Shown piece after piece: positions 52,228 to 61,580 of a stretch of DNA of 64,000 nucleotides (the first letter of the stretch is position 1; the number at the start of each line of letters is the position of its first letter). Location of the stretch: contig NZ_CP156688.1 of NCBI RefSeq assembly GCF_040616545.1, forward strand, positions 1,054,001 through 1,118,000, read 5' to 3'. The notes under the pieces are model-generated. The model was not told the origin of the DNA. It did no database searches and was given only the letters and a program-made list of their open reading frames with translations. A program made the position numbers and the translations under genes. The DNA comes from Akkermansia muciniphila. GTDB taxonomy: Bacteria; Verrucomicrobiota; Verrucomicrobiia; Verrucomicrobiales; Akkermansiaceae.

Positions 52228-52436
52228 GGAAATGCCTTGCCGTAGCAACGGTCAAACTGTTTGCGCCTTAATACCGGGGAGATGCCTGAAAACGGGCGTG
52301 GAAGACTCCATCCATCTTTTGACATTCCGCTCCTATTGATACTATTTAAGCATAATTTCTTCAAACGAAAAAAGTTTCAAATGACAAATACGTCTTTTAA
52401 CAAGGCGTGTTTTATGATACCTACGGGTACGGTTTT

Positions 52437-53543
52437 ATGGGCACCAGCACTTTACAACAACCAGCCATTTACCTCGTTTTTGGAACGGATGAAGGAATGG
52501 TGCGTGAAAAGGCTTCCGGCATCTTTACCGCCCTGACGGAAGGAACGAATGAATTTTCCCATGAAATACTGGAAGCGGCCTGCGGCGATTCCGACGAAGC
52601 GGACCAGGTGACGCGCCAGGTCATGGAAGCCCTGCGCACGCTTCCCTTCTTCCCGGGCCGCAAGGTGGTCTGGATGAAGAACTGCAATTTTCTGGGGGAT
52701 TCCGTCACGGGGCGCTCCTCCACCACGGAGGCCGCTCTTGATTCCCTCAGGCATTTGCTGGAAGGCGGCCTAGGACCGGACGTCCTGCTGCTTATTTCCG
52801 CCTCTGAATTTGACAAGCGCCGTTCCTTTAACAAATTCCTGCTCCAATCCGCCGCCGCGGAGGAACTGAACAAGCCGGACATCACCAAGGCCGGCTGGGA
52901 AGGCAGCCTGATGCCCCTGATCAACAAGGAAGCTGGAGCACGGGGCCTGAGCTTTGACTCCGCCGCCCTGGAGTTGTTCATTCACCGCGTCAGCGAATCT
53001 TCCCGCCAGATCATCTCCGAAATTGAAAAACTGGACCTCTACCTGGGCGCGGACAGGCGCACCGTGATGCCGGAGGATGTGGAGCGCATGGTTCCGCTGA
53101 CGCGCACGGGCGTTATTTTTGAAATTTCACGCGCCCTGGAAAATAAAAAGAGTGATGCGGCCATCTCCCTCATTGACTTCCAACTGGAACGCGGTGAAAA
53201 CGCTATCACGATCATGCGCGCCGCGTTCATCCCAACGCTGAGAAATCTGCTCGCCGCCAGGCTTTTATGTGACGCGTTCAACCTGAAGCCTACCAACTTC
53301 AAGGAATTTACGGCCCGCATCTCTTCCCTGCCCTCCTATGCAGCTGCCCTGATTCCCCTGAAAAAAGACGGCACTCCCAATGCGTACCCGCTTTTCCTGG
53401 CGGCGCAGAACGCCTCCAAATTCAAAACCGAACGGTTGAAGCAAACCCTGAAGGAATGCATGAAGGCAGACAAGGCCCTGGTGTCTTCCTCGCTTGATCC
53501 GCGCCTGATTCTGCACCGTCTTGCCATCTGTTCCGCATCCTGA
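52437..53543 (+). CDS. holA: DNA polymerase III delta subunit
   Basis: The 368-residue clamp-loader subunit starts at ATG 52437 (MGTSTLQQPAIYLVFGTDEGMVRE), where the conserved YLxxGxDExxxxE strand-helix begins. The N-terminal domain shows LRTLPFFPGRKVVWMKNCNFL and LLISASEFDKRRSFNKFL. Domain III includes REIxxEIEKLxLY (SSRQIISEIEKLDLYLG). With HolB and DnaX it loads the beta clamp, whose gene dnaN is 6 kb away. Its stop codon overlaps the mnmG start. Confidence 0.92.
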   Translation: MGTSTLQQPAIYLVFGTDEGMVREKASGIFTALTEGTNEFSHEILEAACGDSDEADQVTRQVMEALRTLPFFPGRKVVWMKNCNFLGDSVTGRSSTTEAALDSLRHLLEGGLGPDVLLLISASEFDKRRSFNKFLLQSAAAEELNKPDITKAGWEGSLMPLINKEAGARGLSFDSAALELFIHRVSESSRQIISEIEKLDLYLGADRRTVMPEDVERMVPLTRTGVIFEISRALENKKSDAAISLIDFQLERGENAITIMRAAFIPTLRNLLAARLLCDAFNLKPTNFKEFTARISSLPSYAAALIPLKKDGTPNAYPLFLAAQNASKFKTERLKQTLKECMKADKALVSSSLDPRLILHRLAICSAS

Positions 53544-55420
53544 TGAATTCATCTTCTTCCCAAGCCTCCCCCCTGTTTGACGTTCTTGTCGTCGGCGCCG
53601 GGCACGCAGGCATTGAGGCGGCGTTGGCGGCCTCCCGCCTGGGATGTTCCGTCGCCGTCCTGACCCACAATCTGGATACGATTGGACAAATGTCCTGCAA
53701 CCCGGCCATCGGGGGGCTTGCCAAGGGCCACATTGTCCGGGAAATAGATGCCATGGGAGGAGCCATGGGACTGAACACGGACGCCACCGCCATCCAGTTC
53801 CGCATGCTGAACGCCTCCAAGGGCCCCAGCGTGCGCGCCCCCCGTGCCCAGTGCGATAAAACAGCCTACCGCGCACGAATGAAAATGGTTCTGGAAACCG
53901 CTCCCGGCGTGCGTTTGTTCCAGGGAGATGTGGTCCGGCTACTCGTAAACGGAGAACAACAGGTGACGGGGGCCGTCACCTCCCTTGATTACACCATCTG
54001 CGCGCGCAGCGTAGTCATCTGCTCCGGAACCTTCATGCAGGGTCTGCTGCATGTGGGGCTTCAGCACGTGACTGGCGGACGCATGGGCTGCGCCCCTTCC
54101 AGCCTCTCCACGGACCTGGCCACTCTGGGCTTTCAGGTAGAGCGGCTTAAAACAGGAACTTCTCCGCGCGTCAATGGCAGGTCCATAAACTTTTCCGTCT
54201 GTGAAGTGCAGCCGGGAGACACCCCGGAAGCCCTGTTCAGCTACCGTTCCCGCGACGTGCTGAAACGTTCTTCCGAGCCCTTCTGCACTCTGAACACGTG
54301 GGGAGACGAAGATTTCCGGATGGAGCAGATGCCATGCTGGATTACCTACACCAACCAGGCTACGCATGACATCATCCGGGAGAATTTAAAATTCAGCCCT
54401 CTTTACAGCGGCATCATAGAAGGCATAGGGCCCCGTTACTGCCCCTCCATTGAAGATAAAATCGTGCGCTTCGCGGAAAAAACGAGCCACCAGGTATTCC
54501 TGGAACCGGAAGGGCGCGGCACGGAGGAATTCTATCTCAACGGCGTTTCCACCTCCCTGCCCTACTCCGCCCAATGCGATTTCATCCACACCATTCCCGG
54601 CCTGGAAAATGCCCAGCTCATCCGGCCCGGATATGCGGTGGAATATGACTTCTGCCCGCCCACCCAGCTGCATCCCACGCTGGAAACCAAGCTGGTGGAA
54701 AACCTGTACTTTGCGGGACAGATCAACGGTACCTCCGGTTATGAAGAAGCCGCCGCGCAAGGTTTAATGGCGGGAACAAACGCAGCGCTGAAGGTGCTGG
54801 ACAAACCCTCCCTGGTGCTGCGCCGGGACCAATCCTACATTGGCGTCATGATAGACGACCTGGTCACCAAAGGCACGGACGAACCCTACCGCATGTTCAC
54901 CAGCCGCGCGGAATTCAGGCTTCTGCTGCGCCAGGACAATGCGGACCTGCGCCTGGCCCCCCTCGCTTTTGAAACTGGTCTTATTACTCGTAAGGAATTC
55001 CTGAAAACGGAAGCGCGGCAAAACGCCATTGAAGAGGGAACCGCAAAAGCCTCCCTTGTTAAACATGAAGGCGCCCCTCTGTCCACCTGGCTCAAGAGGC
55101 CCGGCAATGACTGGACCATGCTGCCTGAAGAACTGAAAAAAATGTTCCACGTGGAACATTTGGATGCCATTGCCACGGATATCCAGTATGAAGGACACAT
55201 TGAAAGGCAGAAAAAACAGGCGGAGAAAATCACAAGGATGGAAAGCAAAACCATCCCTGCCGACATTGATTACGAACAAGTTCATGCCTTAAAAAAGGAG
55301 GCCGTCATCAAGCTGGGAAAGATACGCCCCGGCACCATCGGGCAGGCATCACGCATTCCGGGCATTACTCCGGCAGATATAGCCCTGCTGCTTGTACATC
55401 TGCAAAAGCGCGGAAGATAG
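53543..55420 (+). CDS. mnmG: tRNA uridine-34 5-carboxymethylaminomethyl modification enzyme MnmG (GidA)
   Basis: The 625-residue flavoprotein has the FAD site VVGAGHAGIEAALAASRLG, NPAIGGLAKGHIVREIDAMGG and NTDATAIQFRMLNASKGPSVRAPRAQCDK, the Cys-containing TGTSPRVNGRSINF region and the C-terminal GidA-assoc domain (YEGHIERQKKQAEKI, DIDYEQVHALKKEAVIKL). With MnmE it modifies wobble uridine in several tRNAs. Its ATG overlaps the holA stop. The coding sequence contains a perfect parS palindrome at 55143-55158, and mnmG is often beside oriC. Confidence 0.97.
   Translation: MNSSSSQASPLFDVLVVGAGHAGIEAALAASRLGCSVAVLTHNLDTIGQMSCNPAIGGLAKGHIVREIDAMGGAMGLNTDATAIQFRMLNASKGPSVRAPRAQCDKTAYRARMKMVLETAPGVRLFQGDVVRLLVNGEQQVTGAVTSLDYTICARSVVICSGTFMQGLLHVGLQHVTGGRMGCAPSSLSTDLATLGFQVERLKTGTSPRVNGRSINFSVCEVQPGDTPEALFSYRSRDVLKRSSEPFCTLNTWGDEDFRMEQMPCWITYTNQATHDIIRENLKFSPLYSGIIEGIGPRYCPSIEDKIVRFAEKTSHQVFLEPEGRGTEEFYLNGVSTSLPYSAQCDFIHTIPGLENAQLIRPGYAVEYDFCPPTQLHPTLETKLVENLYFAGQINGTSGYEEAAAQGLMAGTNAALKVLDKPSLVLRRDQSYIGVMIDDLVTKGTDEPYRMFTSRAEFRLLLRQDNADLRLAPLAFETGLITRKEFLKTEARQNAIEEGTAKASLVKHEGAPLSTWLKRPGNDWTMLPEELKKMFHVEHLDAIATDIQYEGHIERQKKQAEKITRMESKTIPADIDYEQVHALKKEAVIKLGKIRPGTIGQASRIPGITPADIALLLVHLQKRGR
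55143..55158. promoter_or_regulatory. parS: parS partition site (perfect palindrome) inside mnmG
   Basis: TGTTCCACGTGGAACA is a perfect 16-bp palindrome matching the bacterial ParB-binding consensus TGTTnCACGTGnAACA. It falls within the mnmG coding region, about 2 kb from the proposed oriC. A near copy follows dnaN. Confidence 0.88.
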
Positions 55421-56071
55421 CATCCCGGATATCCGGCTCTGTTTTCCCGGAACTTTTAAAAACGGCTCCGCAGATGATGGAAAACATCATGCACAGTATT
55501 TAGCCGTTTTACTGCCGCCTACACCCCCGGCTTCCGTTCGTTCCCGGTCATTTTTCCTTCAGCATCGCGGCCTGTTTGCCTTGCATACCGGTTCACCGCC
55601 ACATGCATTCATGCTTGCAGGATAGCCTTTTCTACCATCAGTTTGATCAACATTTTCCCGGCTGCCAATATTTCCTCCGCGGCATAGGATTCCCCGTCAA
55701 AAAGAAACAGGAACAAAAAAGAAGCGCATACACCGGGGAAAAGATGGCCCTTTGGCAGGAACGTCAGTAATTGAAGCCATGTTTCCGGCTTCAACCCCGG
55801 AAGAAGGGGGAAGCGGAACACAACGATTATTCTTCCGGCAGCTCCGGAACGGCAAATAAAAATATCCGGCAGGATTCATCTGCCTTTTCCTTAAACAGTC
55901 TCATCTGCGGCGGAGAGAACTCACGCATTTCCGCATGGATTGATCGCCATAAGAAAAACGAACCACGGGAGGAAGGAAAAATGGAGGAAACCATCTACGC
56001 AGCCGCTTCAGGAATCAGTCCCGTATCCCCGCCGGAACATTCCGGACAGCGGGTAAAAATAGCCGCTGCCA
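55421..56071. other. Gene-free 651-bp region between convergent mnmG and ribD
   Basis: No frame here is convincing. The best is minus 55609-55821, whose last 30 residues (DGESYAAEEILAAGKMLIKL) look helical, but its N-terminal half is Leu/Phe/Pro-rich and non-protein-like; it could be a remnant. A perfect 8-bp stem TTGAAGCC/GGCTTCAA occurs at 55770-55793. The stretch may be a decayed gene or part of the origin-proximal partition zone. Confidence 0.4.
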
Positions 56072-57127
56072 TTACCGGTAGCGCACGTTACCGCGGATGC
56101 ACACGTCATTCCCAAAGGTTCTCACAACAGGCTGATTGAGATAGGCTTCGCGTTCCAGGAATGCGCCGCCCTCCACTCCACCGGCGCCTCCTCCCGTGAT
56201 CATGGGAGCGTAAAATCCCACCCATTCGTCAACCAGGCCTGCTTTCAGGAATTCCTTAACTAGGCATCCTCCGGCTTCCAGCAGGATGGTTCCGATTTTC
56301 CTGTCACTATAAAGATTTTGTAGCAGTTCCAAATAGTTGGAAACATTCTCCACAATCAGGGTACGGTCACGGAATTCATCCGTCAGGCAAATGGAATCCG
56401 CAGGTATGGACGCTGCGTCATGAGTCAGGACAATGCGCCAGGGCTGCTCTTTCAGGGGAGAAATAGGGCGGTCCGGAGTCCTGATCGTCAGGGAAGGATT
56501 ATCCATGCGCATGGTATTTCCTCCCGTGAGAATGGCATCGCACTCCGCACGGAGGGTGTGCACAAAAGCCCTGGATTCTTCGTTCGTCAGCCATTGGGAA
56601 CGTTCCGGACTGCGTGAAATGCGGCCATCCAGGGACATGGCGCTTTTCGCGACCACCCACGGACGCCCTTCCAGCATGTTCAGCCGGAACCCCCGGATCA
56701 GGCGGTCGCACTCCTTTTCCAGAATTCCCTGCGTGACTTGGATTCCCGCACGTTGAAGAATTTCAGCGGCAGCGCCGCGGTGCCTGGGATTGGGATCCTC
56801 CGAACCGTAAACCACCCGTTTGAAATGATGTTCCAGAATGGCTTCCGTACAGGGCGGCGTTTTTCCGGTAGTGCTGCATGGCTCCAGAGTGACGTACAGG
56901 GTGGAATCCGCAAACAGCCCGGCGTTTCCTCTGGCTGTTCCATCAGCTATGGCATTCCTTTCCGCATGGGGAAGACCGGCTTTTTCATGAAACCCGGAAC
57001 CGATTACCCGGTTCCCATGAACAATGACCGCTCCTACACAGGGGTTCGGCGCTGTCAGCCCGATTCCGTTTGCGGCCAGTTCAACGGCCATGTTCATCCA
57101 GCGGGCGTCCTGGTCCTCTGTGTTCAT
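56072..57127 (-). CDS. ribD: Bifunctional riboflavin enzyme RibD (deaminase/reductase)
   Basis: The 351-residue enzyme starts at ATG 57127, preceded by AAGGT at proper spacing. Residues 1-145 form the deaminase: H54-A-E56 in LPHAERNAI and the zinc Cys C84 and C93 in LEPCSTTGKTPPC. Residues 150-351 form the reductase (GRPWVVAKSAMSLDGRIS, DAILTGGNTMRMDNPSLTIR and LEAGGCLVKEFLKAGLVDEWVGF). It carries out the second and third steps of riboflavin synthesis. It is a single gene transcribed away from the proposed origin. Confidence 0.95.
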   Translation of the reverse strand: MNTEDQDARWMNMAVELAANGIGLTAPNPCVGAVIVHGNRVIGSGFHEKAGLPHAERNAIADGTARGNAGLFADSTLYVTLEPCSTTGKTPPCTEAILEHHFKRVVYGSEDPNPRHRGAAAEILQRAGIQVTQGILEKECDRLIRGFRLNMLEGRPWVVAKSAMSLDGRISRSPERSQWLTNEESRAFVHTLRAECDAILTGGNTMRMDNPSLTIRTPDRPISPLKEQPWRIVLTHDAASIPADSICLTDEFRDRTLIVENVSNYLELLQNLYSDRKIGTILLEAGGCLVKEFLKAGLVDEWVGFYAPMITGGGAGGVEGGAFLEREAYLNQPVVRTFGNDVCIRGNVRYR

Positions 57128-57164
57128 GCAGACCTTGTAACACGAATCCCGGAGGGAGGACAAT

Positions 57165-57375
57165 CACGTTGTGTGATTGAAGAATATTAGATATAACAAT
57201 ATTAAATTCCTTCTTCTTCTACCGTGTGCCTCATGTGAACAACGTTTTTATCCCTTAGCCATGAAGGAATTGCAAGACTCTGCAAATGTGAATAAATTCA
57301 GCCCATAGAAATGTGCATAACATCTGAATAACTTATTCACACAATACTCACACTTAATTGACGCATCCGTTCACA
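57165..57375. other. oriC: Probable chromosomal replication origin (oriC): DnaA boxes and AT-rich unwinding element
   Basis: Three exact matches to the DnaA box TTATnCACA are seen: 57287-57295 (TGTGAATAA), 57312-57320 (TGTGCATAA) and 57333-57341 (TTATTCACA). Weaker ones lie at 57234-57242 (one mismatch), 57344-57352 and 57367-57375. An AT-rich element at about 57180-57210 adjoins the cluster. mnmG, holA and dnaN lie within 5 kb and parS sites flank both sides. The function is inferred from this combination. Confidence 0.8.
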
Positions 57376-57448
57376 CGGTTATTGGCATGCGGACGGGACA
57401 GTGCATTCCGTCTTGCAGAGGCGCCGGAAGAAATCATACCATTCATGC

Positions 57449-58366
57449 ATGAGGGCTGCCAGACTGATTTACACCCCGGCGATAGACCTTACCTTTCCCG
57501 CAACGGGCCCTGAAAGGCCTTTCTGCGGCTTTTCCGTGGCGGGGGTGAGTATAGCCGCGTATTGTGCTTCCCGGCTCCGGGAAGCGGGCTTTGAGACGGT
57601 TTTGAATTCTGGAGAAGCCGTTCCGGAAGGAACCGGGGAAATAGTGGAAGTGTCCATGCATCATTTCTCTCCGCAGGCTGCCGCGCGGCTTGCCGCCTGC
57701 GGGGCAGGGGAAGCGTGGAGCGGGGAAGGACGCCTGCTGGCGCGGAAGCGGCAGGGAAGCGGGCTGAAACGCGTTTTCACGCGGCAGGAGGCTCCGGTGG
57801 AGCGCCTGGTTTATCCCTGGGACCTGCTGGCGTGGCAGGAAAGAGTGATGGAGGGGATGGAAGGAGGGAGTTTTTCCGCGCAGGATGGCATTCACGTTAC
57901 GGGGGCGCTCCGGGTGGGGAAGGGCACCGTGGTGATGCCGGGCGTGGTGGTGGAGGGGGCCGTCTGGGTGGGGGACGGATGCAGGATAGGGCCCAATTGC
58001 CATTTGCGCGGCTGTGTCTCCATCGGGAACGGCTGCGTGGCGGGGCAGGGGGTAGAACTGAAAAATTGCATCATCGGGGATAACACCTTTATTCCGCATT
58101 TGAGCTATGCGGGAGATTCCATCATCGGCGCGGATGTCAACTTCGGAGCCGGAACGGTGTGCTCCAATTTCCGGCATGACGGAAGAAAGCACAGGATGAT
58201 GGCGGGTGGAAGGCTGGAGGATACGGGAAGGGACAAGCTGGGCGCCGTCATCGGGGATCATGTGCGCCTGGGAGCCAATACCGTCGTTTTGCCCGGCAGG
58301 GTAATTCCTCCCGGAACCTGGACCATGCCGGGAGAGGTGTTCACGGGAGGCATGAACCAGGACTGA
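57449..58366 (+). CDS. Left-handed beta-helix (hexapeptide-repeat) protein, GlmU/nucleotidyltransferase-like
   Basis: The 305-residue product starts at ATG 57449. The C-terminal half (residues 145-300) is a hexapeptide-repeat helix: ALRVGKGTVVMPGVVVEGAV, CRIGPNCHLRGCVSIGNGC, NCIIGDNTFIPHLSYAGDSIIGADVNFGAGTVCSNFRHDG, closest to the acetyltransferase part of GlmU-type bifunctional enzymes. The N-terminal 130 residues lack the GxGTRM pyrophosphorylase loop and may be a degenerate domain. An acetyl- or acyltransferase on a sugar nucleotide is likely, substrate unknown. A strong terminator follows, and the gene reads away from the origin. Confidence 0.78.
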   Translation: MRAARLIYTPAIDLTFPATGPERPFCGFSVAGVSIAAYCASRLREAGFETVLNSGEAVPEGTGEIVEVSMHHFSPQAAARLAACGAGEAWSGEGRLLARKRQGSGLKRVFTRQEAPVERLVYPWDLLAWQERVMEGMEGGSFSAQDGIHVTGALRVGKGTVVMPGVVVEGAVWVGDGCRIGPNCHLRGCVSIGNGCVAGQGVELKNCIIGDNTFIPHLSYAGDSIIGADVNFGAGTVCSNFRHDGRKHRMMAGGRLEDTGRDKLGAVIGDHVRLGANTVVLPGRVIPPGTWTMPGEVFTGGMNQD

Positions 58367-58380
58367 ATTCCCGGAACGCG

Positions 58381-58424
58381 AAAAGGCCGCATGCGGAGGA
58401 ATCCCTCCGTGCATGCGGCCTTTT
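58381..58424. terminator. Strong bidirectional terminator
   Basis: AAAAGGCCGCATGC (58381-58394) and GCATGCGGCCTTTT (58411-58424) pair perfectly, continued by GGAGG/CCTCC inside. T-runs exist on both strands. It separates the beta-helix gene from the convergent PEP-CTERM gene. Confidence 0.88.
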
Positions 58425-58444
58425 AATCAAAAGGGGAAATGGCT

Positions 58445-59176
58445 TTAACGCCTCCGGCGGCGCATCATCAGGGCGGCCAGGCCAAGCAGGCTAAGGGAAG
58501 CCGTAGCCGCTTCCGGCACGGGAAGCACCACGCCGTCATAAAACTTGATGTTGTTGATGTCCATGGTTCCGTTCATGGGGCGCACTTCTCCAAAGGAGGA
58601 GCCGAACTGAGAGCCTGTCAGAGCCGGAGAGGACGGATTCCAGCCCGTAATGGTGCCCGCCAGAGCGCCGTTGACGTAAACGGAAAGCGTCTGGGAGGAA
58701 AGATCGGAGACGATGCTGAAGTTGTTCCACGTATCCTGCTGAAGGTCCGTCCAGGTCACGCCCGTGTTAATGTTGCCGCCGGTTTGGCCTCCGAACCCCT
58801 TGTTATAAAAATAAAGCTCTCCGGCTTCATTGAATTCCAGGACCATGCTGTTGGATTCTCCGGAAACCGTTCCATTGGAATACAGGCTGAAAACGTCTTT
58901 CCACGCATTGCCGGTGGAACTCAGGTTCTTCAGGTCGAAGCTGACGGTAAAACTGCCTGAAATTCCCGCTATGCCGGAATTGTAGGGCGTGCCTCCGCCG
59001 GAGCCGCTGCCGAAAGTGGCATAATCGTTGCCGGTTGTATAAGTGAATGAACCGTTCCAGCCGGGAGCAGTTATTTGCGTTCCTTCCGTGGTCCACTCCC
59101 AGGAATAAACGGGAGAAGCCGCGTGGGCGATGCCTGCCGCAGCCAGTAAAGCCAAAATAATGAATGAACGTTTCAC
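58445..59176 (-). CDS. PEP-CTERM protein with LamG-like jelly-roll domain
   Basis: The 243-residue product has a signal peptide (MKRSFIILALLAAAGIAHA) and a concanavalin/LamG-like domain (residues 30-200: GSFTVSFDLKNLSSTGNAW, VLEFNEAGELYFYNK, TWNNFSIVSDLSSQTLSVYV, MDINNIKFYDGV). The sorting tail VPEAATASLSLLGLAALMMRRRRR has PEA in place of PEP but the same hydrophobic helix and Arg block. It is likely an exosortase substrate at the cell surface, possibly glycan-binding. It is the second such protein here, after the one at 21138. Confidence 0.87.
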   Translation of the reverse strand: MKRSFIILALLAAAGIAHAASPVYSWEWTTEGTQITAPGWNGSFTYTTGNDYATFGSGSGGGTPYNSGIAGISGSFTVSFDLKNLSSTGNAWKDVFSLYSNGTVSGESNSMVLEFNEAGELYFYNKGFGGQTGGNINTGVTWTDLQQDTWNNFSIVSDLSSQTLSVYVNGALAGTITGWNPSSPALTGSQFGSSFGEVRPMNGTMDINNIKFYDGVVLPVPEAATASLSLLGLAALMMRRRRR

Positions 59177-59631
59177 AGAAATTCTCTTTATTGTTTGAAA
59201 TTGCAGGAGCTTGGTGGAAAAGTAGCGGATTTCGAATCCGGGGTCAAATTATTTTTTTAAGAACAAGCCGGTTAACAAAAAGAAAGATCACGGAAAAATA
59301 AAAGCATGAAAGGAAACATAAACGGCGTTTCTTCCGGATAGTGTATATTGTTCAATGAATTTGCCGCTTTCCAGAAGAAAAAGAACAGCATCCGGATTCG
59401 AAATCCGCGTGGGCCGTCAACCGGAAGTTGTTCGCCGGGGAACGGACTTTTAAGAATACTTAAATAATTTGAAAAACCGTTTCATGCAAGATATGCCCGG
59501 AGAAATAGCATATTACTACATATGGTATGCTTTTAAAAAAATACTGCCAAATATTAGGGTTTGACGGAGAAATGGCTTGAATCACAGGAGGCACTTATGA
59601 GAGGATGCGAGGCAGATAAAAGCACAGACAC
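59177..59631. other. Divergent region between the PEP-CTERM gene and dnaN
   Basis: This 455-bp AT-rich region carries the 17-bp inverted repeat at 59225/59392 and presumably the dnaN promoter (TTAAGAATACTTAAATAATT near 59449). No exact DnaA box and no credible coding frame is seen. dnaA itself is not beside dnaN. Confidence 0.45.
59225..59408. repeat. Perfect 17-bp inverted repeat pair, 150 bp apart
   Basis: GCGGATTTCGAATCCGG (59225-59241) and its exact reverse complement CCGGATTCGAAATCCGC (59392-59408) flank an AT-rich 150-bp segment. Each arm can fold on itself (CGGATT...AATCCG). Size, spacing and arm sequence parallel the pair at 39708/39876. It is likely the same element family. Confidence 0.65.
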
Positions 59632-60732
59632 ATGAAGTTTACCATTTCCAAGCAAGTATTTCTCGACGGTCTGAGACAGGTTGCCAGCGTGGTGTCTTCC
59701 AAGACGACGCTGCCCATTCTTTCCAACGTCAAGATTGAAGCTGAAAACGGCCAGGTACGTTTTACGGCTACTGATCTTGATGTATGCATTACCGGCGTAG
59801 TTCCCGCGAACGTGCTGCGCGAGGGCACCGTGACTCTTCCCGCCAAAAAGCTGGTGAGCATCATCAGCGAACTTCCTGAAGCCGAAGTTCAGGTGGACGT
59901 CAACCAGCGCAACCAGGCGACGGTAGAATGCGGCCGCTCCCAATTCAAGCTGAACGGCCTTCCGGCGGACGAATTCCCCGAATTGCCTTCCTTTGAACAG
60001 GCGACCGTTTACCAGGTGGACCAGAATTTGCTGCGCGACTGCATCCGCCGCACGGAATACGCCATTTCCACGGACACCACCCGCTACGTGCTGAACGGCA
60101 TCTCCCTTTCCTTCCGCAACGGCAAGATGACCCTGGTGGCTACGGACGGCCGCCGTCTGGCCCTGGCGGAAACCGCCCTGGAATTCCCGGAAGAACAGCA
60201 GCTGGACGCCATCCTGCCCACCAAGGCTGTCGGTGAACTCCGCCGCCTTCTGGATGAAGTGGGAACCGTCACCATCCGGTTCACCCGCAACCAGGCCGCT
60301 TTTGAAATCAATGATACGCTTTTAATCAGCAAGCTGATTGACGGCAATTATCCGAACTACCGCCAGGTCATCCCGACGGATTGCAAGGAAAGCATAGAAC
60401 TTCCCTGCGGTGAACTGCTGGAAACCGTGCGCCGCGTTTCCCTCCTCTCCGTGGACAAGAGCACGAACATCAAGCTGAACTTCCGTGAAAATGAGCTGGA
60501 AGTGGCCTCCAGCGCGGAAGGTGTGGGTGAAGCCCATGAATCCATGACGATCACTTATGCGGGAAGGCCGCTCTCCATTTCCTTCAACCCGGATTTCTTC
60601 ATGGCCCCCCTGAAGACGATGGCCGGGGATACGATCATTACGCTGAACCTCATTGATGAAATGAGCCCGGGCGTGCTGAAGATTGGCGATGAGTTCCTGT
60701 ACGTGCTCATGCCGATGAGATCTCCCAACTGA
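59632..60732 (+). CDS. dnaN: DNA polymerase III beta subunit (sliding clamp)
   Basis: The 366-residue protein begins MKFTISKQVFLDGLRQVASVVSSKTTLPILSNVKIEA, the standard clamp start, and shows three equivalent domains: LPAKKLVSIISELPEAEV, RCxxxTEYAISTDTTRYVLNGI (as DCIRRTEYAIST) and a C-terminal FxMAPLK / LMPMRSPN end (the usual ...YVxMPxR). The clamp tethers polymerase to DNA. dnaA and recF do not flank it. Its place 2.3 kb from the DnaA-box cluster supports an origin here. Confidence 0.96.
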   Translation: MKFTISKQVFLDGLRQVASVVSSKTTLPILSNVKIEAENGQVRFTATDLDVCITGVVPANVLREGTVTLPAKKLVSIISELPEAEVQVDVNQRNQATVECGRSQFKLNGLPADEFPELPSFEQATVYQVDQNLLRDCIRRTEYAISTDTTRYVLNGISLSFRNGKMTLVATDGRRLALAETALEFPEEQQLDAILPTKAVGELRRLLDEVGTVTIRFTRNQAAFEINDTLLISKLIDGNYPNYRQVIPTDCKESIELPCGELLETVRRVSLLSVDKSTNIKLNFRENELEVASSAEGVGEAHESMTITYAGRPLSISFNPDFFMAPLKTMAGDTIITLNLIDEMSPGVLKIGDEFLYVLMPMRSPN

Positions 60733-60766
60733 TTTTGACTGGTACAAAATCGTTCATACAAGGAAC

Positions 60767-60797
60767 AGGCGCCGTGGAAGCATGGCGCCTGTTTTTT
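60767..60797 (+). terminator. Rho-independent terminator of dnaN
   Basis: CAGGCGCC (60766-60773) and GGCGCCTG (60785-60792) form an 8-bp stem, followed by TTTTTT. It lies about 35 bp past the dnaN stop. Confidence 0.8.
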
Positions 60798-60826
60798 ATG
60801 GGTTGACCGTGAAGGTACAGGCAAGG

Positions 60827-60835
60827 TTATTCACA
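60827..60835 (+). promoter_or_regulatory. Isolated DnaA box after dnaN
   Basis: TTATTCACA is an exact DnaA-box match, identical to the one at 57333, standing 5 bp before the parS-like site. A single box outside the main cluster may titrate DnaA or be an auxiliary origin element. Confidence 0.6.
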
Positions 60836-60839
60836 TTAA

Positions 60840-60855
60840 TGTTCTACGTGGAACA
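60840..60855. promoter_or_regulatory. parS: parS-like partition site, one mismatch
   Basis: TGTTCTACGTGGAACA differs from the perfect copy inside mnmG by one base (T for C at position 6). The central ACGTGGAACA half is intact. Non-coding, about 3.5 kb from the DnaA-box cluster on the side opposite to the mnmG site. Confidence 0.75.
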
Positions 60856-61037
60856 TTTTTCATTTTCCACCGTCCGGACGCGGGCGGAAAGAAGGGTTTC
60901 CCTGTTTAAAAGACCATGCACGGGCCCTGGGGGCAGGGAAGAAACGGCGTGAGAATCCTTCCGGCGCCGGAAGGCATGGGTTGGGAATCCGGAAGGGCAG
61001 GGCGGAAAGCCGGATAGCCCGGCTATCCGCATGCCTG

Positions 61038-61478
61038 TTATTCGCTCAACAGTCCGGGAGCGGAAAATAAATCCGGAGCCACGTGGAAAGGATAGGAACC
61101 GGAGGCGTGGAGAATGGCTTCCCGGACGGGAGGCAGGGAACTGAAGCAGGCGGATTCCACATTCAGGATGCGGCCGTCTTTCAGTTCAATCATCAGTCCC
61201 GGTTCCGCTTCATGATCCGGCGTACATCCTATGCGTTCAATAAGTTCCCACGGAATTTCCCTGCGTGAAATGCTGTTGCCCCACGCCAGGGAGGTGGAAG
61301 TAACGGTCAGGAAGTAGGGCCTGCCCAGGAGGACGGGAAGCCACAGGAACAACAGGAGGGCGCCGAGGAGAAAGCTCCACCAGCCGGATCCGAAGAAAGC
61401 CCAGACCAGGCCGCACCCCAGGGTGCCGAGGAGCCTTCCTCCCAGCCGGTAACTGCGGTAGGAATAGTAAGTGTTCAT
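61038..61478 (-). CDS. Small membrane protein of unknown function
   Basis: From ATG 61478 the protein has 146 residues (a TTG at 61493 is an alternative). Two adjacent hydrophobic segments (LLGTLGCGLVWAFFGSGWW and FLLGALLLFLWLPVLLG) are followed by a PH-domain-like soluble part (FLTVTSTSLAWGNSISRREIPWELIERIG, LMIELKDGRILNVESACF). This layout resembles bacterial PH (bPH2-type) membrane proteins. No function is assigned. Confidence 0.7.
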   Translation of the reverse strand: MNTYYSYRSYRLGGRLLGTLGCGLVWAFFGSGWWSFLLGALLLFLWLPVLLGRPYFLTVTSTSLAWGNSISRREIPWELIERIGCTPDHEAEPGLMIELKDGRILNVESACFSSLPPVREAILHASGSYPFHVAPDLFSAPGLLSE

Positions 61479-61580
61479 GAGTTGCGAAGCCAATGAAGCG
61501 TCAGATGCGGACGGGGGATGAAAACCCCCAGCCGTATTCTATACGGTACTCTCTGATTCCTGCGAAGACAAGAGGATAAG

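Follow-up and report, generated by a model that had tools for sequence, protein, structure and literature searches.

Positions 57161 to 57386 of the window very probably form the chromosomal replication origin (oriC) of an Akkermansia species close to A. muciniphila. The window is the whole 64,000-nucleotide stretch analysed here, contig positions 1,054,001 to 1,118,000 of a genome assembled as one contig of 3,055,113 bp. The original prediction had proposed a probable oriC in the gap beside ribD, and that proposal is backed by a switch of the sampled GC skew at the gap, a dif-like site near the antipode, and a parS site 2.1 kb away. For a gut bacterium that has been studied extensively, the locus offers an origin candidate resolved to the base; numbering of this assembly begins at dnaA, 1.11 Mb from where replication probably starts. 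The ribD-gap locus should be used when growth rate is estimated from read depth, when gene dosage is considered, and in vectors that carry the chromosomal origin.

A cluster of DnaA boxes adjoins an AT-rich tract beside ribD

With TTATNCACA taken as the exact DnaA box, all three exact boxes named in the original prediction (57287, 57312, and 57333) were located, and the weaker boxes described around them correspond to one-mismatch boxes at 57234 and 57323 (Table 1). The clustering of the boxes, not their number across the window, stands out: TTWTNCACA occurred 5 times in the whole window versus 2.65 expected, and at least 5 were reached in 13 of 100 shuffles. When 57164 to 57439 was shuffled 5,000 times with dinucleotides preserved, no shuffle contained three exact boxes and none contained five boxes at up to one mismatch. 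The contig carries 42 exact copies of TTATNCACA, and only at the ribD gap do three fall within 55 bp, a degree of clustering beyond chance (1 in 200,000 trials with 42 uniformly scattered boxes). The genome also encodes a DnaA with the box-binding domain (TIGR00362 above cut-off; PF08299).

Table 1. Features of the candidate origin and its surroundings (window coordinates)
Feature	Position	Strand	Basis or conservation
holA	52407..53543	+	TIGR01128 above cut-off
mnmG (gidA)	53543..55420	+	TIGR00136 above cut-off
parS-type palindrome TGTTCCACGTGGAACA, inside mnmG	55143..55158	+	published consensus at up to 2 mismatches
ribD	56072..57127 (start 57127 assumed)	-	TIGR00326 above cut-off
Probable oriC core (inverted repeat, AT-rich tract, trinucleotide run, box array, right-hand block)	57161..57386		box cluster, skew switch, conservation
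Inverted repeat CAATCAC-5-GTGATTG, ribD side	57161..57179		read from sequence
AT-rich tract, presumed DNA unwinding element	57180..57209		low stability; conservation
Trinucleotide run (TTC-TTC-TTC-TAC-C side), presumed DnaA-trio array	57209..57223	+	strand and register inferred
Degenerate box-like 9-mer, TGTGCCTCA on +, two mismatches vs TGTGNATAA, abuts box 57234-57242	57225..57233	-	read from sequence
DnaA box TTGTTCACA, one mismatch	57234..57242	-	TGTGAACAA unchanged in 5/5 loci
DnaA box TTATTCACA, exact	57287..57295	-	unchanged in 5/5 loci
DnaA box TTATGCACA, exact	57312..57320	-	TGTGNATAA in 4/5 loci; TGCGCATAA in L024
DnaA box TTATTCAGA, one mismatch	57323..57331	-	G004: none within one mismatch
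DnaA box TTATTCACA, exact	57333..57341	+	unchanged in 5/5 loci
Conserved block TTCACACGGTTATTGG, right of boxes	57370..57385		14/21 positions of 57366-57386 invariant (five loci)
Hexapeptide-repeat (left-handed beta-helix) transferase-like gene	57449..58366 (start 57449 assumed)	+	PF00132
dnaN	59632..60732	+	TIGR00663 above cut-off
Outlying exact DnaA box, 3' of dnaN	60827..60835	+	present in 5/5 loci (window + four relatives)
Second parS-like palindrome TGTTCTACGTGGAACA, 3' of dnaN	60840..60855	+	one mismatch vs first; 5/5 loci

The AT-rich tract said to adjoin the boxes was recovered as a low-stability tract at about 57180 to 57209. Its 40-bp window from 57182 was the 30th least stable of 63,961, low but not the lowest, and its rank was 175 of 63,941 with 60-bp windows and 391 of 63,901 with 100-bp windows. 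We do not argue for a hairpin within the tract, because the single-strand DNA fold was no better than those of shuffles (z = -0.61; 48 of 200 as good). Across five loci, the boxes and the AT-rich tract were conserved, and the spacer between box 57234-57242 and the four boxes at 57287-57341 was variable (42 of 46 positions invariant in 57180-57225 versus 10 of 43 in the spacer). The inverted repeat on the ribD side was the same in the window, L024, and G017 and was not retained in G004 and L025.

Among the neighbouring genes, mnmG, holA, and dnaN were said to lie close by and ribD to flank the gap, and all four passed NCBIfam equivalog cut-offs. The gene on the other flank had been described as encoding an unassigned beta-helix protein; the beta-helix stands, but the protein can be assigned as a hexapeptide-repeat protein (Pfam Hexapep), its best NCBIfam match being the C-terminal part of Arch_glmU, under the cut-off of that model. 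The gene beside the gap showed 96% identity in A. muciniphila CSUN-56 AmIII. The setting had also been presented as unusual. This is borne out for the absence of dnaA, but the proximity of mnmG and dnaN is less odd than was implied; both genes are common neighbours of bacterial origins. A search of 56000 to 61500 for a regulatory RNA (e.g., a riboswitch) upstream of ribD gave no Rfam match at gathering thresholds. The open reading frame at 58445-59176, between the hexapeptide-repeat gene and dnaN, has a signal-like start and a C-terminal hydrophobic segment followed by an arginine run; it is PEP-CTERM-like by eye and had no Pfam match.

A trinucleotide run beside the first boxes may be a cytosine-centred DnaA-trio array

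Origins distant from dnaA are already known; the (NTC)n element that adjoins the first boxes here is less expected. On the plus strand of the window, the run reads 3'-CCA TCT TCT TCT TCC-5', heading away from the boxes; in the genus as a whole, the element next to the first box is TTC-ATC-ATC-ATC or TTC-TTC-TTC. We found (NTC)3 and then a box (up to two mismatches) within 16 bp in 19 of 27 genus loci versus 0.35 expected, an expectation that does not make a clean test because the pattern was picked after the sequences had been viewed. Among the 23 loci with at least two NTC units, the TC nearest the box was preceded by A at 18 loci, by T at 4, and by G at 1.

The published definition of the basal unwinding system asks for a box with no more than two mismatches and then, within 16 bp, (.A.)3 or more (PMC8287927, as given in the available part of that paper). 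The first boxes of the window do not fit this definition, and the middle-A run reported for the window goes with a weak box lying on the far side; relatives with (ATC)n-type elements satisfy it. On the presumed trio strand, (NTC)n reads 3'-NCT-5', with cytosine at the centre. We scanned 29 loci (27 from the genus, G041, and L025) for runs of at least three and at least four units with each middle base. Observed (expected) loci were 24 (6.39) and 17 (1.33) for C, 26 (14.90) and 17 (6.02) for A, 29 (16.93) and 27 (7.71) for T, and 6 (5.53) and 0 (1.06) for G. Middle C therefore exceeds chance the most among the four bases; the joint conservation of T and C makes T high as well. Of the 24 loci with a middle-C run of three or more units, 2 (G001 and G012) have it away from the element. 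A middle base carrying an amino group, as A and C both do, recurs at period 3 beside a box in the window, here as a middle-C run of five in the presumed register.

Our first reading, in which the middle A had turned into T, was replaced by the cytosine register in light of substitutions made in Bacillus subtilis (PMC10721633). In the experiments as described in the available portion of that paper, changing the middle A to C kept the strand-separation rate and gave better growth than G or T, and C was tolerated because the amino group contacting Asn187 was retained (PMC10721633). A T register is possible. Tentatively, and at somewhat less than even probability, we suggest that Akkermansia and at least one other family of the order use cytosine-centred trios (3'-NCT-5') instead of adenine-centred 3'-GAT-5'. 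At the alignment position that we take to be Asn187 of B. subtilis, Asn was present in all 32 DnaA rows covering it, the 33rd row (G011) being blank. Cytosine-centred trios, if real, would be a natural version of the swap tolerated in B. subtilis, and the noncanonical run makes testable which feature of the DnaA-trio DnaA truly needs.

Alternatively, the locus may be the origin while the run serves to bind a different protein or is a pyrimidine tract that only eases melting, a reading to which we give a nearly even chance. The A. muciniphila clade fails the middle-adenine rule, with no (.A.)3 within 16 bp of the first box; conservation of T and C together allows more than one register; and the post hoc choice of the NTC pattern also counts in favour of this alternative. 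It is opposed by the retention of phase, unit number, and distance to the first box at those 19 of 27 genus loci, by the use of the same place beside a box in G041, a member of another family, and by the tolerance of a middle cytosine in B. subtilis (PMC10721633, in the part available).

The form of the run varies among relatives. G041 carries TCT-TCT-TCT beside its box and G013 carries a GTC-TTC-TTC run, and because these two have TTC-type runs, the ATC type looks derived within the genus on the DnaA tree, which has few outgroups. The DnaA of the A. muciniphila clade (L001) is itself divergent, scoring 181 to 185 bits against PF00308 versus 201 to 237 bits in the other full-domain matches (split G027 pieces aside); its stem branch measures 0.89, and it carries changes at positions that are constant elsewhere (e.g., EEFF to EEFL). 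Several changes fall in the trio-contacting region. Coevolution of the TTC run with this divergent DnaA was considered and is unsupported, because G013 and G041 pair TTC-type runs with normally scoring DnaA (217 and 231 bits, respectively). A second, short DnaA-type AAA+ match in a 216-amino-acid frame elsewhere in the genome (L002, G000:C1:2804325-2804678; E = 8.6e-6) is possibly Hda-like.

GC skew, a dif-like site, and parS converge on the ribD gap

GC skew was sampled over about 12% of the chromosome, with the arms bordered by oriC and the dif-like site and the stretch spanning dif and the antipode excluded from the arm counts. The sampled skew was negative in 22 of 23 left-arm stretches and positive in 17 of 19 right-arm stretches, the exceptions being 1,070,001 (+0.023), 2,000,001 (-0.025), and 2,530,001 (-0.030). 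Inside the window, the cumulative G-C count reached its minimum at 57535, with the last box about 0.2 kb away. The skew check proposed with the original prediction thus came out in its favour: the sampled skew switches at the ribD gap, placing the candidate at the skew minimum.

A predicted dif has been reported for A. muciniphila ATCC BAA-835 (PMC3025954, available in part). Here, a scan of the sampled stretches placed a dif-like 28-mer near the antipode, at 2,632,477, dividing the circle into arms of 1.521 and 1.534 Mb (49.8/50.2). It matched 23 of 28 positions of a dif consensus, and the next best site elsewhere in these stretches matched 20. The same 28-mer is found in G004 at 2,812,040, again near half-way. 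The KOPS-like motif GGGNAGGG pointed mostly away from oriC on both arms, with 40 forward and 6 reverse occurrences in 10 right-hand stretches and 17 forward and 42 reverse occurrences in 18 left-hand stretches. Separately, the exact antipode of oriC has two directly repeated exact DnaA boxes about 0.3 kb away (L042, G000:C1:2639184-2639214). These boxes are 6.7 kb from the dif-like site, and their placement may be chance.

We scanned for parS with the published consensus at up to two mismatches, as in PMC10197239 (method as given in the part available). The palindrome inside mnmG was the sole match in the genome, 2.1 kb from the nearest exact box. The near-match 3' of dnaN is about 3.5 kb from oriC on the side opposite the mnmG site, and two parS-like sites were reached in 1 of 100 window shuffles. 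At 60827-60855, an exact DnaA box stands beside the parS-like palindrome, both being present in five of five loci, and this pair may give the origin region a second site for ParB or DnaA.

The cluster sits between divergently transcribed genes, and other close box pairs occur in the genome (e.g., 1,153,411/1,153,479 and 2,639,184/2,639,206), as would be expected if it were a DnaA-regulated promoter or a DnaA-titration site, with the origin elsewhere. We consider this highly improbable: the skew switch, parS, and the dif-like site converge on the ribD gap, the boxes in G023 stay beside ribD despite a different right-hand gene, and 57000-57600 contains one sigma-70-like promoter, no more than in shuffles. 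One of the other pairs, two exact boxes 68 bp apart and 42 kb from oriC (L013:3411-3487, G000:C1:1153411-1153487), lies upstream of an NrdR-like gene start by eye and is a candidate DnaA-regulated promoter.

As the original prediction held, the origin candidate is not next to dnaA, which occupies contig positions 1 to 1407, 1.11 Mb away; the locus is therefore not of the dnaA-dnaN type in which oriC adjoins dnaA, although dnaN is 2.3 kb from it. An origin at dnaA, where the assembly numbering starts, has precedent in the many bacterial origins that adjoin dnaA and in Methylacidiphilum infernorum of the same phylum, whose origin was mapped 250 nt upstream of dnaA (PMC2474590, available in part), but it is contradicted by the skew (-0.078 and -0.080 on either side, with no sign change) and by the boxes (none with one mismatch or fewer between -1.5 and +2.5 kb; nearest exact boxes 23.6 and 87 kb off), leaving it hardly credible.

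Proposed initiation and comparison with known origins

As in the basal unwinding system (PMC8287927, in the part available), the layout fits a DnaA that nucleates on boxes and then spreads along one strand of the run. From the observed positions of the boxes, skew switch, parS, and dif-like site and their conservation, we infer DnaA binding, melting, strand choice, helicase loading, and trio reading along the following lines. DnaA made from a gene 1.11 Mb away would fill the box array at 57234-57341 and, from the tandem boxes at 57225-57242 nearest the AT-rich tract, would extend onto one strand of the run at 57209-57223. The strands would melt at about 57180-57225 and the helicase would be loaded there; two forks would leave in opposite directions and meet near dif, 1.52 to 1.53 Mb away. 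ParB at the flanking parS sites may help to separate the new origins.

The E. coli box pattern and unwinding element are unlike those of the Akkermansia candidate. The candidate does resemble the E. coli-type oriC in having a box array beside an AT-rich tract, near mnmG and apart from dnaA (PMC10225481 and PMC8287927, both available in part). The E. coli-type origin is flanked by gidA/mnmG (PMC10225481) and lies between it and mioC, whereas here ribD separates mnmG from oriC, dnaN is on the other side, and parS sites flank the locus. The co-oriented boxes, short spacer, trinucleotide run, and then AT-rich DNA resemble the B. subtilis-type basal unwinding arrangement (PMC8287927), but the middle base in the A. 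muciniphila clade is not adenine, and a T and a C are conserved instead (3'-NCT-5').

No paper on DnaA boxes or an unwinding element in Akkermansia was among the matches listed in our literature search. DoriC presumably holds an origin prediction for this organism. In a Hi-C study, the origin of strain YL44 was placed by skew and parS, and coverage was said to agree; in the available part of that paper the position is approximate (PMC10197239). The approach was the same as ours and the locus is probably the same as the ribD gap, but here the boxes and presumed unwinding element are given at base level. The same study of 12 gut bacteria including YL44 noted no systematic coincidence between origins and dnaA (PMC10197239), and the Ori-Finder authors make this point for origins in general (PMC10225481), each as worded in the available text. 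The origin of M. infernorum was likewise placed by GC skew, but it lies beside dnaA, and the Akkermansia candidate lies away from it (PMC2474590).

The box cluster stays with ribD in most of the genus loci examined

Two relatives assembled as one contig gave similar pictures, with arms assigned by hand from the sampled-skew table. The homologous gap in G004 is at 1,237.9 kb, with parS 1.9 kb off and a weaker parS match at 285,758, and the sampled skew was negative in 11 of 11 left-arm stretches and positive in 8 of 9 right-arm stretches. The gap in G015 is at 425 kb and holds three exact boxes, with parS 1.6 kb off; all 11 stretches on the left arm and 8 of 9 on the right arm fit, and dnaA is at 2.81 Mb.

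We scored clusters at 3 per exact box and 1 per one-off box within 200 bp, calling a score of at least 7 strong. Strong clusters were present at 20 of the 27 genus ribD loci, and 15 of 27 had three or more exact boxes. Among the seven loci without a strong cluster, two have one weak box and G012 is at a contig end; given these seven, some species may have a decayed or relocated origin site, or a different box consensus. Outside the genus, none of three loci had a box cluster beside ribD.

G041 belongs to another family of the order and has dnaA next to dnaN, both at the start of the contig. Its sampled skew changes sign between 300 and 500 kb, with all 10 stretches negative on one side of that switch and all 10 positive on the other. 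The minimum within 482-502 kb was at 497,358, on a box at 497,351; mnmG and two parS sites are about 8 kb away, and dnaA-dnaN is about 0.5 Mb away. Each of the four single-contig genomes examined thus has its skew minimum apart from dnaA. The position of dnaN varied, within 3 kb of the boxes in the present genome (G000), G004, and G017, 27 kb from them in G015, and with dnaA in G041. Far from the skew minimum of G015, a further group of four exact and two one-off DnaA boxes lies within 180 bp (L217, G015:C1:2148629-2148808), beside an open reading frame that is phage-like by eye.
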